Source: Candidatus Sumerlaeota bacterium (GTDB taxonomy: Bacteria; CG03; SLGR01). From it: a stretch of 7,063 bases of DNA. Positions 2,211-7,059 of the stretch are shown here, piece by piece. The translations under genes and the position numbers were made by a program. The first letter of the stretch is position 1. Each line of letters starts with the position of its first letter. Where the stretch lies: the NCBI GenBank assembly GCA_007136585.1, contig SLGR01000163.1, forward strand, positions 1 through 7,063. The letters run 5' to 3'. Under the pieces are notes generated by a model. That model was not told the DNA's origin. It did no database searches and worked only from the letters and a program-made list of their open reading frames with translations.

Positions 2211-5200
2211 TTGAAGATATATGAACGCGCGGTAAGAAGAAAAGTCACCTTCATGATGGTTTTCACAGCCATTGTGGGGTTCGGGGTCGTCTCTCTCTTT
2301 CAGCTTCAGCCGGAGCTTCTCCCGGATATATCATTTCCGGCCGTAACGGTCCTCCAGACTTACTCCGGGGTAGGCCCGGAGGAGATGGAGTCCCTTATAA
2401 CGCGGCGCATAGAACAGGCGGTCTCCAGCGTAAGCAGGGTTGAGAGCGTCTCCTCCTCCGTACAGGAAGGCCGGACCACAACAACAGTTGAGTTCCAGTG
2501 GGGGACCGATATGGAGGCCGCCGTAGCCGATATAAGGGAAGCTATGGACAGGGCCCAGCGCTTCCTGCCGGATGACGCCGACCCCCCGTTTATCTTTAAA
2601 TTTGATTTCTCGGCGATGCCTATAATGATGATAGGTCTCAGCGGCCCATTTGACCGAGCGCGTATGAGGCAGCTCTCCGAGGATCTAGTTGAACCGCGCC
2701 TTGAGAGCGTTGACGGGGTGGCGGCTGTAAGCACCGGGGGCGGACAGGAAAGGGAGATACGGGTCGAGCTCGACAGGAACAGGCTTGAATCTCTCAAAAT
2801 GCCCGTTACAAGCGTAATCGGAGCCATATCGGCTGATAATATCAACCTTCCCGGAGGAAGCGTAAAAACCGCCCGGCGGGAGTACCTCTTAAGGACCTCT
2901 AACGAGTTCAGAAACCTGAGGGATATTGAGAACGTAACCATAACTTCCCGGGACGGGGTCCCCGTGACGGTAAGGGATATCGCCGAGGTCCGGGACACCT
3001 TTATGGACCGCACAAATGAGATGACCATAAACGGCGAACCCGGGGTGATGGTGGTTATCCAGCAGCGCTCCGGGGCAAATACCGTTGAAACCTCCAGAAA
3101 CGTGAGGACGGCACTGGAAGATATAAGAAGAGAGCTCCCTTCCGGGGTGGAGTTCCTGGTACTTATGGACAGCGCGGAGTTCATAGAACAGTCCATTGAC
3201 AACCTGGCCGGGATAGCCATGCAGGGGGGTCTCCTGGCCGTTCTTATACTCCTCTTCTTTCTGAGAAATATCAGGGCGACCCTTATAATCGCCATCTCCA
3301 TACCGGTATCTATAGTAGCCAGTTTTACGGCTTTAAGGGCCGGAGGGATAACCCTGAACATAATGTCCCTGGGAGGCCTGGCCCTGGCTGTAGGGATGCT
3401 CGTTGACAACTCCGTGGTTGTCCTGGAGAACATCTTCCGGCACCGGGAGGAGGGGCAGACCCCCGCGGAGGGGGCGATATGGGGAACCCACGAGGTGGCT
3501 ATGCCCATAACCGCCTCCACCCTTACGACAATCGCCGTATTCCTTCCTATATTCTTTGTCCCCGGCATAGCAGGCATCCTTTTCCGGGAGCAGGCCCTGA
3601 CAGTCACCCTTTCGCTCATAGTCTCACTATTTGCGGCCCTGACACTTATCCCGCTTCTCAGTTCACTTCTTCTGAAGGGAAACCTTAAGCCTCCCGAGAC
3701 CGGGGCGGGAGGAGCCCTCACTTCACTTCTCGAGAAACTGGACGGGGCCTATAAAGGAGTTATCACGTGGGTCCTCGGACATAAAAAGAGTATCCTCCTG
3801 GCCACCCTTGTATTTTTCGCCGGCTCCCTTGCCGCGGTCTTTCCCTTCAGATGGATAGCGGCCGAGTTTATGCCCCGCGTGGATGACGGAAGCGTAAGGA
3901 TAAGCATAGAGATGCCGGTGGGGACAAGGCTTGAGAAGACAATACAGAAGACCCGGGAAATCGAGCAGATTGCCATTGAGGGGGTCCCCGAACTTGAAAC
4001 CTCGCGGGCCAGGATAGGCCCAGGCGGGTTTGTCTTCGGAGGAAGGACCGGAAGCCACGTATCACAGATAGACCTGGAACTTATCCCGGCCGGCGAGAGG
4101 CGCCGCTCTCAGGACGAGGTTATCCGGAGCCTGCGCGAGAGTTTCACCGATATAACAGGAGCCCGGGTTCGGGTAGGGTCCGGGGGAAGAGGTATGAGGA
4201 TGATGGGCGGGGCAGCCAGCCCCATAGAGGTTGAGATATATGGGTTTGATCTTACAGCCGCCGCCGCGCTTGCCGAACAGATAAGCAACATAATAGAGGA
4301 TATCCCCGGGACCACGGATGTACAGATGGGGATAGAAGACAGGCGCCTGGAGTACGCTATGAGTATTGACAGGAGAAAAGCCGGGGACCTGGGCCTTACT
4401 GTAAGAAGCGTTTCATCCCAGATAGAGGCTTATATGCTCGGGCAGACTGTAGGGTTTTTCAGGACAGGCGAGGACGAATACCCCATCTCAGTGAGGCTGA
4501 GAGAAGAGGACAGGGAGAGCCTGCGGCAGGTGGAGAACCTCCCGGTCTCGGCCCCGGGCGGGAGCGTCGTGCCCCTTAAGAATATAGCAGAGATATCCCC
4601 GTCGGCAGGGCCGGTATCCATAACGCGCTATGACCAGAGGCGCCGGACCACGGTAACTGCGGATTATATCGGCAGGGACCTTGCCGGCATAAGCCGGGAG
4701 ATAGAGAGACGCATAAACGAGGAGATCATCCCCCCCGCGGATTTCACCATACGTATGGGAGGCGAGGTTGACGAGCAGCGCGAGTCGTTCTTCTGGCTCG
4801 CCCTGGCTTTCCTCGGAGCGGTTATACTCGTATATATGGTAATGGCATCCCAGTTTGAATCCCTTCTGGATCCGTTCATAGTGCTTTTCACCATACCCCT
4901 CTCCCTTATAGGGGTTATCTGGATGCTTTTCTTTACAGGGACGAGCCTCTCTGTAATATCCTTTATCGGGGTCATAATGCTTACGGGTATCGTTGTAAAC
5001 AACAGCATAGTCCTTGTGGATTACATAAACCTGCTTAGAGCAAGAGGGCTGAAACTTGAAGAGGCGGTGATATCCGGGGGGCGGAAGAGGCTGAGACCCG
5101 TACTTATGACTGCCTTTACCACTATGCTGGCGATGACCCCGATGGCACTGGGTCTCGGAGAAGGCGCGGAGATGAGCTACCCAATAGCAAGGTCTCTCAT

Positions 5201-5300
5201 AGGGGGGCTTATAGCCGCGACTTTCCTGACCCTGCTGGTCATACCTGTTTTATACACTGTGCTTAACAGGGTGAGAGAAAGAAACGGAGGAGGAGCGTGA
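2211..5300 (+). CDS. RND efflux pump, HAE-1/AcrB-like inner-membrane transporter
   Basis: This is a proton-driven efflux transporter (AcrB superfamily) that works as a trimer in the inner membrane with the two upstream gene products. At 1029 residues it has full family length and the expected two-fold layout. TM1 is at about 11-30, with the first periplasmic domain at about 33-330 and TM2-6 between about 333 and 487. TM7 is at about 525-545, the second periplasmic domain at about 546-858, and TM8-12 at about 860-1018. The N-terminal QPELLPDISFPAVTV is typical of HAE-1 pumps. TM4 reads GMLVDNSVVVLEN, with D399 at the position of AcrB D407 and N400 replacing D408. TM10 reads GIVVNNSIVLVDY, with N930 where AcrB has K940. 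The heavy-metal pump TM4 signature is not present, so a drug, lipid or other hydrophobic substrate is more likely than a metal, but this is not proven. The second periplasmic domain has a Gly/Met-rich loop at 656-667. The gene starts with TTG, and its stop overlaps the next gene's GTG. Confidence 0.96.
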   Translation: MKIYERAVRRKVTFMMVFTAIVGFGVVSLFQLQPELLPDISFPAVTVLQTYSGVGPEEMESLITRRIEQAVSSVSRVESVSSSVQEGRTTTTVEFQWGTDMEAAVADIREAMDRAQRFLPDDADPPFIFKFDFSAMPIMMIGLSGPFDRARMRQLSEDLVEPRLESVDGVAAVSTGGGQEREIRVELDRNRLESLKMPVTSVIGAISADNINLPGGSVKTARREYLLRTSNEFRNLRDIENVTITSRDGVPVTVRDIAEVRDTFMDRTNEMTINGEPGVMVVIQQRSGANTVETSRNVRTALEDIRRELPSGVEFLVLMDSAEFIEQSIDNLAGIAMQGGLLAVLILLFFLRNIRATLIIAISIPVSIVASFTALRAGGITLNIMSLGGLALAVGMLVDNSVVVLENIFRHREEGQTPAEGAIWGTHEVAMPITASTLTTIAVFLPIFFVPGIAGILFREQALTVTLSLIVSLFAALTLIPLLSSLLLKGNLKPPETGAGGALTSLLEKLDGAYKGVITWVLGHKKSILLATLVFFAGSLAAVFPFRWIAAEFMPRVDDGSVRISIEMPVGTRLEKTIQKTREIEQIAIEGVPELETSRARIGPGGFVFGGRTGSHVSQIDLELIPAGERRRSQDEVIRSLRESFTDITGARVRVGSGGRGMRMMGGAASPIEVEIYGFDLTAAAALAEQISNIIEDIPGTTDVQMGIEDRRLEYAMSIDRRKAGDLGLTVRSVSSQIEAYMLGQTVGFFRTGEDEYPISVRLREEDRESLRQVENLPVSAPGGSVVPLKNIAEISPSAGPVSITRYDQRRRTTVTADYIGRDLAGISREIERRINEEIIPPADFTIRMGGEVDEQRESFFWLALAFLGAVILVYMVMASQFESLLDPFIVLFTIPLSLIGVIWMLFFTGTSLSVISFIGVIMLTGIVVNNSIVLVDYINLLRARGLKLEEAVISGGRKRLRPVLMTAFTTMLAMTPMALGLGEGAEMSYPIARSLIGGLIAATFLTLLVIPVLYTVLNRVRERNGGGA

Positions 5301-5587
5301 AAGCTTTACTTGTAATATATAACTCAGCTATAGAGAGTATGGTCATTGAGTGTATGAAGGAATGCGGACTGGAATCCTATACCAAGTTCCCCCGTATACA
5401 CGGGGCCGGAAAAAGCGCCGGCCCGAGGTTTGACACCCACGTATGGCCGGGGCTCAACAACGCCCTTTTCATAGTCGCGCCTGAGGAGAATATTCCCGAG
5501 ATGCTGGATAAGATCCGCGCTCTAAAAGAGCGCCACCTCAAGGAAGGCGTCAAGGCCTTTGTACTTCCCGTAGAAGACTCCGTATAA
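5297..5587 (+). CDS. PII-like small signalling protein coupled to the RND pump
   Basis: This is a 96-residue cytoplasmic protein with no signal peptide or membrane segment. It resembles the PII-like (ferredoxin-like fold, trimer-forming) small proteins. It opens with a beta strand, KALLVIYN, then a helix, AIESMVIECMKECG. A Gly/His-containing loop follows (about 31-49, with RIHGAGKSAG and H35, H48), then a conserved-looking WPGLNN turn at 50-55 and a strand, ALFIVAP. A second helix (64-82) and a final strand, VKAFVLPVE, complete the fold. Classical GlnB/GlnK proteins have about 112 residues and a uridylylated T-loop tyrosine; this loop has no tyrosine, so it is not ordinary GlnB. The GTG start lies inside the pump stop (GTGA), after GGAGGAGGAG at 5286-5295, so translation is probably coupled. 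PII-like proteins encoded beside RND or metal-efflux genes are known. The ligand and target here are unknown, and a CutA-like role is a weaker alternative. Confidence 0.75.
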   Translation: MKALLVIYNSAIESMVIECMKECGLESYTKFPRIHGAGKSAGPRFDTHVWPGLNNALFIVAPEENIPEMLDKIRALKERHLKEGVKAFVLPVEDSV

Positions 5588-5630: not shown

Positions 5631-5657
5631 TTGCCTCACAAGAAAATCTAAACGAAA
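5631..5657 (+). repeat. Left outer terminal repeat
   Basis: This 27-bp copy begins TTGCCTCACA and ends TCTAAACGAAA. It matches the left inner copy at 25 of 27 positions, differing only at positions 9-10 (CA versus TC). It is a probable end or transposase binding site. Confidence 0.85.
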
Positions 5658-5665
5658 CATAATCG

Positions 5666-5692
5666 TTGCCTCATCAGAAAATCTAAACGAAA
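5666..5692 (+). repeat. Left inner terminal repeat
   Basis: This 27-bp copy begins TTGCCTCATC and ends TCTAAACGAAA, 35 bases after the outer copy start to start. It lies 36 bases before the transposase ATG, so transposase bound here could also repress its own transcription; that is inference. Confidence 0.85.
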
Positions 5693-5704
5693 TGATTTAG
5701 AATA

Positions 5705-5723
5705 GCCACCGAAGGGAGGTGGC
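5705..5723 (+). promoter_or_regulatory. Ribosome binding site partly inside a hairpin
   Basis: GCCACC (5705-5710) and GGTGGC (5718-5723) can form a 6-bp GC-rich stem with the 7-base loop GAAGGGA. The strong Shine-Dalgarno stretch GGAGGTG (5715-5721) ends 7 bases before the ATG at 5729 and is half in the loop, half in the 3' stem arm. Pairing would hide part of it, which could keep transposase translation low. The arms are read directly; the effect is inferred. Confidence 0.6.
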
Positions 5724-5728
5724 GAAAG

Positions 5729-6943
5729 ATGAGGTTAGAATTGAAAGAAAGACAGAAGATCGCCGGATTAATGAGCGGCAGATACCAGAAGGCCGGCAAG
5801 AAGGAAAAAGGACGTATTCTTGATGAGTATGTTGATCTGACAGGCCAGAATCGAGCGTACGCTTCATATCTCTTAAACAATTGGGGCCAAAAGATAAGGG
5901 TGGGCGATACCGTGTACATTCTTGGCCGCAGGAAAAAGAAGAAGCCGGTAGAGAAGAAAAAACTCTATGATGAAAATATATTCGGGCCATTAAAAGAACT
6001 ATGGCTGATAAGCGGGATGTTATGTGGAAAACTTATGTGGAAGTTCATCGAAGATAATCTTGACCTGCTTACTGATCACGGTGAGATAGAGGTGAGCGAA
6101 GAACAAAGGGAGAAGTTGCTGCGGATAAGTCCTGCGACGATAGACAGGATGCTGTCCCAGGAAAAGAAGAGGCTGGAGATGAAGGCAAGAAGCGGGACAA
6201 AGCCCGGCACCCTGCTGAAGAAAAACATACCGATAAAGACTTTTTCTGATTGGAATGACAGCCTGCCTGGTTTTCTTGAGATGGATCTGGTAAGCCACAA
6301 TGGAGGCGATCCCCGGGGAGAATTCATACAGACGTTGGATGTGACAGATGTATGCACCTGCTGGACAGAAACTGAAGCTGTAATAAACAAAGCCCAAGTA
6401 TTTGTATTCAAAGCGATAAAAAACATAAGAGCTCGTATGCCTTTCAAGGTGCTCGGCCTGGATGCTGACGGAGGAGGAGAATTCATAAACGATCAACTGT
6501 ATCGGTACTGCGGGAAAGAAAAGATTACCTTTACCCGCTCAAGACCCAACAGAAAGAACGATAACTGCCACATAGAACAGAAAAACTACTCTATAGTGAG
6601 AAAAACGGTGGGGTACTACCGGTATGAGGGAGAAGAAGATCTGAAGCTGTTAAATGAGATATACAAGCGTTTAAGGCTAATGACAAATTTCTTCATCCCG
6701 ACGATGAAACTGGAGAAGAAAATCCGGAACGGAAGCAGTGTGTATCGTAAGTATGATCAACCACGTACACCATACAAAAGAGTCTTAGAATCGCCGCATA
6801 TAGGAGAATCGGTAAAAGAAGAGCTGATAGAAATGCGGAAAGGATTGAATCCTGCTGCATTAAGACGGGAAATGGTAGCGCTACAGAATAAGTTGTATAA
6901 AAAAGTTGCTTCGCGAGGTAAAAGTAGTTTTAAAGTAGCATAG
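5729..6943 (+). CDS. DD35E transposase (rve/integrase-core fold, ISNCY-like)
   Basis: This 404-residue transposase would bind the element's end repeats and catalyse cutting and strand transfer. The N-terminal part is basic and helical, with a helix-turn-helix-like segment at about 26-51 (RILDEYVDLTGQNRAYASYLLN). A second possible DNA-binding helix pair lies near 123-150 (ISPATIDRMLSQEKK). The catalytic core follows with D186 in FLEMDLVSH, D247 in LDADGGGEFIN and E283 in NDNCHIEQKN. D247 and E283 are separated by 35 residues, as expected for DD35E enzymes of the IS3/IS481/retroviral integrase fold. The C-terminal region, with PRTPYKRVLESP (345-356) and GLNPAALRREMVALQNKL (372-389), resembles a large group often annotated as ISNCY-family or integrase-catalytic-domain transposases. 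The frame is intact with all three acidic residues, so it could be active. The start is fixed by the strong GGAGGTG site. The exact family name is less sure than the enzyme class. Confidence 0.9.
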   Translation: MRLELKERQKIAGLMSGRYQKAGKKEKGRILDEYVDLTGQNRAYASYLLNNWGQKIRVGDTVYILGRRKKKKPVEKKKLYDENIFGPLKELWLISGMLCGKLMWKFIEDNLDLLTDHGEIEVSEEQREKLLRISPATIDRMLSQEKKRLEMKARSGTKPGTLLKKNIPIKTFSDWNDSLPGFLEMDLVSHNGGDPRGEFIQTLDVTDVCTCWTETEAVINKAQVFVFKAIKNIRARMPFKVLGLDADGGGEFINDQLYRYCGKEKITFTRSRPNRKNDNCHIEQKNYSIVRKTVGYYRYEGEEDLKLLNEIYKRLRLMTNFFIPTMKLEKKIRNGSSVYRKYDQPRTPYKRVLESPHIGESVKEELIEMRKGLNPAALRREMVALQNKLYKKVASRGKSSFKVA

Positions 6944-6998
6944 TACTTGAAGAAAAAAACAAAAAATTAGTAGTATTTGGAGGCGCAATTGGAAAATC
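6944..6998 (+). other. A-rich stretch between transposase stop and right repeats
   Basis: These 55 bases are A-rich and contain no credible gene. GGAGG at 6979-6983 precedes a TTG at 6989 that opens a 20-codon frame running through the right repeats to TGA at 7049-7051. This is most likely chance. Confidence 0.5.
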
Positions 6999-7025
6999 AT
7001 ATCTTTAGATTTTTAAATGAGGCAA
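6999..7025 (-). repeat. Right inner terminal repeat
   Basis: This is an inverted copy ending TGAGGCAA on the + strand. It matches the reverse complement of the left inner copy at 20 of 27 positions. The conserved blocks are TTTAGATTTT and ATGAGGCAA; the bases between and at the inner end have drifted. Confidence 0.75.
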
Positions 7026-7040
7026 CGAAAGGCTTTCGTT
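7024..7040. repeat. 17-bp near-perfect palindrome between the right repeats
   Basis: AACGAAAGGCTTTCGTT has 8-base arms around a single G (7032). As RNA it would form a 7-bp stem with a GGC loop, but the stem is A+T-rich and the following TAGAATTTT is a poor T-run. It overlaps the inner edges of both right repeats. A role as weak terminator or protein site is possible but unproven. Confidence 0.5.
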
Positions 7041-7059
7041 TAGAATTTTGATGAGGCAA
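7034..7059 (-). repeat. Right outer terminal repeat
   Basis: This inverted 26-bp copy starts TTTCGTTTAGA and ends GATGAGGCAA on the + strand, both blocks identical to the reverse complement of the left inner copy. It has 5 instead of 6 bases between them. Its outer edge lies 34 bases beyond that of the inner copy, close to the 35-base spacing on the left. Confidence 0.85.

Follow-up and report, generated by a model that had tools for sequence, protein, structure and literature searches.

A PG0541-family PII-like protein encoded directly behind an RND efflux pump as a probable cytoplasmic regulator or sensor of the pump

In Gram-negative bacteria, RND pumps account for a large share of drug and xenobiotic export, and to our knowledge little is known of the proteins by which these pumps are turned on or off once synthesised. 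The locus described here raises the question of what a small PII-like protein does when its gene begins inside the stop codon of such a pump. The window, by which we mean the whole 7,063-nucleotide stretch analysed, is one entire contig (C180) of a draft genome of 1.88 Mb (88% complete), and a scan of named genomes placed Elusimicrobia MAGs as its nearest named relatives. Four genes assigned with Pfam follow one another on the forward strand: a TolC-like outer-membrane efflux protein (OMP; 22-1290; Pfam OEP, 245 bits) whose N-terminus is possibly cut by the contig start, a periplasmic adaptor of the MFP/HlyD type (1287-2189; Pfam HlyD_D23, 85 bits; NCBIfam RND_mfp, 176 bits against a cut-off of 95), an RND permease of 1029 residues (2211-5300; Pfam ACR_tran, 841 bits; alignment to AcrB) and a PII-like protein of 96 residues (5297-5587). 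The adaptor start overlaps the OMP stop by 4 nt, 21 nt separate the adaptor from the RND gene, and the RND and PII-like genes again overlap by 4 nt. This last junction is as the first-pass annotation had described it, with the GTG start of the PII-like ORF (5297-5299) sharing the letters GTGA with the TGA stop of the pump (5298-5300), and a GGAGGAG ribosome site lies just 5' of the start. Rfam and promoter/terminator scans of the window returned nothing above chance.

The PII-like assignment was supported by both profile searches and structure prediction. Because the protein scores above the cut-offs of Pfam P-II (34.6 bits; gathering cut-off 25) and of NCBIfam NF045581, the PG0541 family transporter-associated protein model (90.8 bits, E 4.3e-26; whole-protein cut-off 45), it is not a chance ORF. 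The NF045581 match spans residues 2-91 and covers the whole model, which also matches all 61 aligned members, window protein included; Pfam P-II matches 57 of the 61 relatives at E 0.01 or better, and relatives at 28-73% identity keep the same motifs. A single-chain AlphaFold2 prediction made with the 61 aligned sequences gave the order E-H-E-E-H-E (mean pLDDT 91.8, pTM 0.84), which is the beta-alpha-beta-beta-alpha-beta arrangement with T-loop of the ferredoxin-like PII fold, in agreement with the fold that the first-pass annotation had expected. The best solved folds were CPII (Z 12.4), PotN (11.7), E. coli GlnK (11.2), SbtB (11.1) and a DUF3240 protein (3ce8; 10.9), and since these scores are nearly tied the predicted fold singles out no one subfamily.

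Given an NF045581 score far above its cut-off, together with the P-II match and the predicted PII fold, the window protein is an additional member of the named, uncharacterised PG0541 family and not a new kind of protein; nothing in it excludes membership. We found no described function for the family in the literature open to search. The family name already records a link to transporters, which the RND gene directly upstream in the window bears out, and the novelty of the locus is therefore below what had been supposed at first reading. The family namesake, PG0541 of Porphyromonas gingivalis, presumably adjoins the rifampin/puromycin pump genes xepCAB. A 2007 comparison tabulated PG0541 among the proteins confined to Bacteroidales or a related group (PMC1887533); with loci across many phyla, the family is far wider than Bacteroidales. 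DUF3240 (PF11582) was considered as the same family and rejected, as it shares the PII-like fold with no sequence match to the window protein, and it occurred in only 1 of 290 genomes. The SbtB and CPII folds are close to that of the window protein; no model of either family gave a match in the Pfam and NCBIfam searches. A search of the window's genome for a canonical PII protein found none, but it also missed the window's own PII-like protein and is therefore uninformative.

The alignment showed which parts of a PII protein the family retains. Across 61 sequences G36, G38, W50, P51 and N54 were invariant, and T29, P43 and G84 nearly so; the stretch from GxG to the W-P-x-x-N turn forms the T-loop (codons 36-54; 5402-5458). 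The first-pass annotation had proposed the loop at 31-49, with H35, H48 and this turn, as the ligand or target site. The turn fits that proposal well and H48 reasonably (84% conserved), while H35 (39%) does not, and the alignment contains no conserved cysteine. GlnK of the GlnK-AmtB pair shares with the window protein the PII fold, a transporter-linked gene, T29 and the GxG (G35-x-G37 in GlnK), all kept in the family. Unlike GlnK, the family has a T-loop about 7 residues shorter at its tip, with a gap in aligned members at the pore-plugging R47 and L, M or F at the uridylylation site Y51; the pattern Y[KR]G[AS][AE]Y, present in GlnK, occurred in 0 of 107 members. The C-loop arginines are also mostly missing (80% of members have a gap at R101, 88% one at R103), and the B-loop reads EG[IV]K instead of the canonical GDGK. 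Judged from these residues, the family is a PII relative with part of the adenine site retained and the nitrogen-signalling features lost, since T29 and GxG are kept while R47 and Y51 are absent and R101/R103 mostly missing.

The association with RND pumps extends well beyond the window. Distinct members numbered 115 when the loci of the named-genome scan were combined with profile matches from further genomes, and in 104 of them, from many phyla, a same-strand RND ORF ended shortly before the member (between -800 and +200 nt relative to its start); the conserved neighbourhood on which the first-pass annotation had staked its reading is thus real. Among the 104 pairs, 37 have the 4-nt overlap and 42 have gaps of 0-30 nt. 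The named-genome scan alone gave 80 loci, in Elusimicrobia, Omnitrophota, Latescibacterota, Eisenbacteria, Planctomycetota, Lentisphaerae, Spirochaetes, Bacteroidetes/Ignavibacteria, Deltaproteobacteria, Nitrospirota and others. Most loci follow the order OMP-MFP-RND-PII where the contig is long enough, and several of the non-adjacent members sit at contig edges.

This pairing is conserved but not exclusive. The divergence of the partner tracks that of the pump (distance correlation 0.79 over 48 pairs), and when a pump from the main paired clade served as the query, the partner accompanied 13 of the 14 top matches. Pumps sampled purely by similarity to the window's pump include many that lack it, and the window's own genome holds four RND pumps and only one PG0541 family member. 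The pairing state changed at least six times on well-supported branches of the pump tree. The simpler picture of paired pumps as one clade, seen with same-genome pumps, was rejected, because several unpaired pumps fall between paired groups when sampling is blind to the partner.

By curated models and by its TM4 motif, the pump itself does not belong to the HAE-1 type to which it had been assigned at first reading. It missed the cut-off of the HAE-1 model TIGR00915 (438 of 940 bits), as well as those of CusA/CzcA TIGR00914 (548.8 of 701 bits) and RND_permease_2 (744 of 1250 bits), and in the AcrB alignment its TM4 reads VDNS at 398-401, which is neither the VDDA of HAE-1 pumps, with its DD, nor the DFG..DGA of heavy-metal pumps. 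The absence of the heavy-metal signature had been correctly noted. At the proton-relay positions, D399, N400, N930, R960 and T967 correspond to D407, D408, K940, R971 and T978 of AcrB, so that two relay residues are replaced (D408 by N400, K940 by N930) and three are kept; the same replacements are common in paired and unpaired relatives.

A comparison of paired with unpaired pumps pointed to two cytoplasmic loops. Positions 944, 941 and 945 in the TM10-TM11 loop and 424 and 420 in the TM4-TM5 loop (AcrB 954, 951, 955, 433 and 429) were among the most discriminating of 1022 columns. By the AcrB alignment they fall just past the relay residues on TM4 and TM10; in AcrB, relay residues lie on TM4, TM10 and TM11 (PMC8277102). 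Paired pumps tend to share E420 and an aromatic residue at 424 after TM4, and N-[IL]-x-x-[AG]-R-G after TM10. In the window these are the loop with E420 and W424 (pump codons 408-428; 3432-3494) and the motif DYINLLRARG at the cytoplasmic end of TM10 and in the TM10-TM11 loop (5019-5048), a motif common to most paired pumps. In a thinned pump set, 4 of the top 10 discriminating columns were cytoplasmic, against 0-2 in 24 control clade splits. Under a circular-shift null the top-10 value was reached by 47 of 1019 shifts, with the top 5 and top 20 not unusual, and the mean discrimination of cytoplasmic columns was only 1.05 times the mean, so that just the top-ranked columns stand out.

Raw counts of the motif, whose columns were chosen after looking at the data, were striking. 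A scripted count found it in 74 of the 94 pumps with a partner and in 4 of the 57 without, 2 of those 4 being broken pairs. The pattern D[YF]xN[ILMV]xx[AG]RG picked out 18 RND pumps in 280 genomes, 15 of them followed by the PII gene, and in 28 genomes of another phylum all 15 motif pumps had the partner, although these were mostly of one genus and two of the genomes were shared with the larger set. The motif is missing from an unpaired pump whose rank places it within the main paired group. Once ancestry was corrected for, the association was not significant: of 6 independent contrasts, 3.8 showed the motif following the pairing and hardly any showed the opposite (sign test, median p 0.125). 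Covariation between T-loop and pump loops gave no signal over 48 pairs. Because the contrasts point the same way but are too small in number to reach significance, we treat the cytoplasmic-loop signature as a lead to a contact site, suggested by sequence, and not as a result. One unpaired pump with the RARG motif was considered as a sign of a partner acting from elsewhere in its genome (G046); this was rejected, as the PII gene there belongs to an NfnAB/GltD-like operon.

Taken with a predicted PII/ferredoxin-like fold, the conserved RND neighbourhood makes a cytoplasmic partner of the pump the most reasonable reading, and the PG0541-family protein is probably an intracellular regulator or sensor of the pump. 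The best explanation, to which we give about an even chance, is direct gating, in which a dedicated cytoplasmic PII trimer would dock on the RND trimer and its T-loop contact would gate transport in response to a small-molecule ligand. The protein would be co-produced with the pump whose gene precedes its own and would serve that pump alone, and its trimer would most likely dock on the cytoplasmic face of the trimeric pump. The short T-loop (G36xG38 to W50-P51-x-x-N54) would then contact two loops that lie next to the proton relay, TM4-TM5 and TM10-TM11, and a bound small molecule would set whether transport is slowed or permitted; retention of T29 and GxG favours an adenine nucleotide as this ligand. 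We infer the trimer, its docking, the ligand and the direction of control, and at the sequence level an inhibiting, an activating and a reporting role would look alike.

Since RND permeases are themselves trimers and the SbtB trimer sits under the SbtA trimer, a PII-like trimer under the pump is the simplest model. SbtB binds the cytoplasmic face of SbtA with its T-loops inserted, as GlnK does in AmtB (PMC8352866). SbtB, the partner of the bicarbonate transporter SbtA, and CPII are among the closest folds to the window protein; in contrast to them, it accompanies a transporter of a different superfamily (RND efflux), carries the W-P-x-x-N turn and ends at residue 96 without the C-terminal CGPxGC R-loop. 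Against direct gating count the loss of GlnK's R47 and C-loop arginines, the many close pumps without the partner, and the lack of a natural fusion of the PII-like gene to a pump among the loci checked. Long open frames had hinted at such fusions, and in those inspected the extra length lay upstream of the likely start. If the family gates its pump in the way proposed for SbtB and SbtA, one more class of trimeric transporters would come under PII control. Both cytoplasmic loops of the pump, together with the W-P-x-x-N turn of its partner, offer concrete residues for mutation. A bolder extension, possible but well short of even chances, would make PG0541 proteins the widespread fourth subunit of a particular set of RND pumps. 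Such trimers would read the energy state of the cell and, via both loops, block or free the proton path where it ends in the cytoplasm, which would put RND pumps under direct metabolic control by a PII protein.

Somewhat unlikely in our view is a sensor or reporter, recruited by the pump's cytoplasmic face or binding incoming substrate or metal, that passes the signal on to a different target in the cytoplasm instead of gating the pump. It is typical of PII proteins to act on several targets, H48 is well conserved, and a few members occur away from pumps, for example behind the NfnAB/GltD-like operon. There is also a precedent in PII-NG, co-transcribed with CzcABC in Geobacter (e.g. GSU2134) and proposed as a metal sensor, which is likewise a PII-domain protein in an RND operon (PMC7726332). 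However, PII-NG is reported to derive from GlnB/GlnK and to be encoded by the first gene of a heavy-metal CzcABC operon (PMC7726332), whereas the window gene comes after its pump, and that pump misses the CusA/CzcA cut-off. With H35 variable and no cysteine conserved, there is little to support a metal site, and the pump operon is the one recurrent neighbour tested for and found.

We regard as more doubtful still that the protein is an assembly or stability factor, a small accessory subunit of the pump that senses no metabolite. The tight translational coupling, with its same 4-nt overlap in 37 of 104 pairs, and the co-divergence with the pump would suit such a subunit, and small proteins such as AcrZ bind RND pumps (PMC10710835); yet the retained adenine-site residues T29 and GxG suggest a ligand, and similar pumps exist without the gene. 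Very improbable, and already disfavoured, is a gene merely travelling with the operon with no functional link, for although some close pumps lack it and one locus (L052) retains it after its pump was lost by deletion, drift would leave far fewer neighbouring pairs than the 104 seen among 115 members from many phyla.

Several loci depart from the usual arrangement. First, at L052 (5848-5987; G163:C212) an intact PG0541 gene directly follows the last 33 codons of the deleted RND pump, a remnant that a TetR-like ORF enters out of frame. Second, at L072 (540-2186) the RND tail is separated from the PG0541 gene by a hydrolase gene and a REP-type transposase gene. Third, the gene stands between two RND genes, the first pump very divergent, at L163 (G145:C11, 12288-18843), and before the RND gene, not after it, at L245 (4756-8002; G284:C573). 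Fourth, the member behind the NfnAB/GltD-like operon (L242, 2733-4577; G046:C138) is divergent, with a WPG motif and no pump, possibly a different use of the same protein type. Lastly, in the window an insertion sequence (~5631-7059) starts ~44 nt past the PII-like stop, and the contig ends at it. Its transposase ORF (5729-6943) has weak IS481 and rve matches in Pfam and NCBIfam, and is flanked by inverted repeats of ~45 nt carrying tandem copies of a 27-nt unit.
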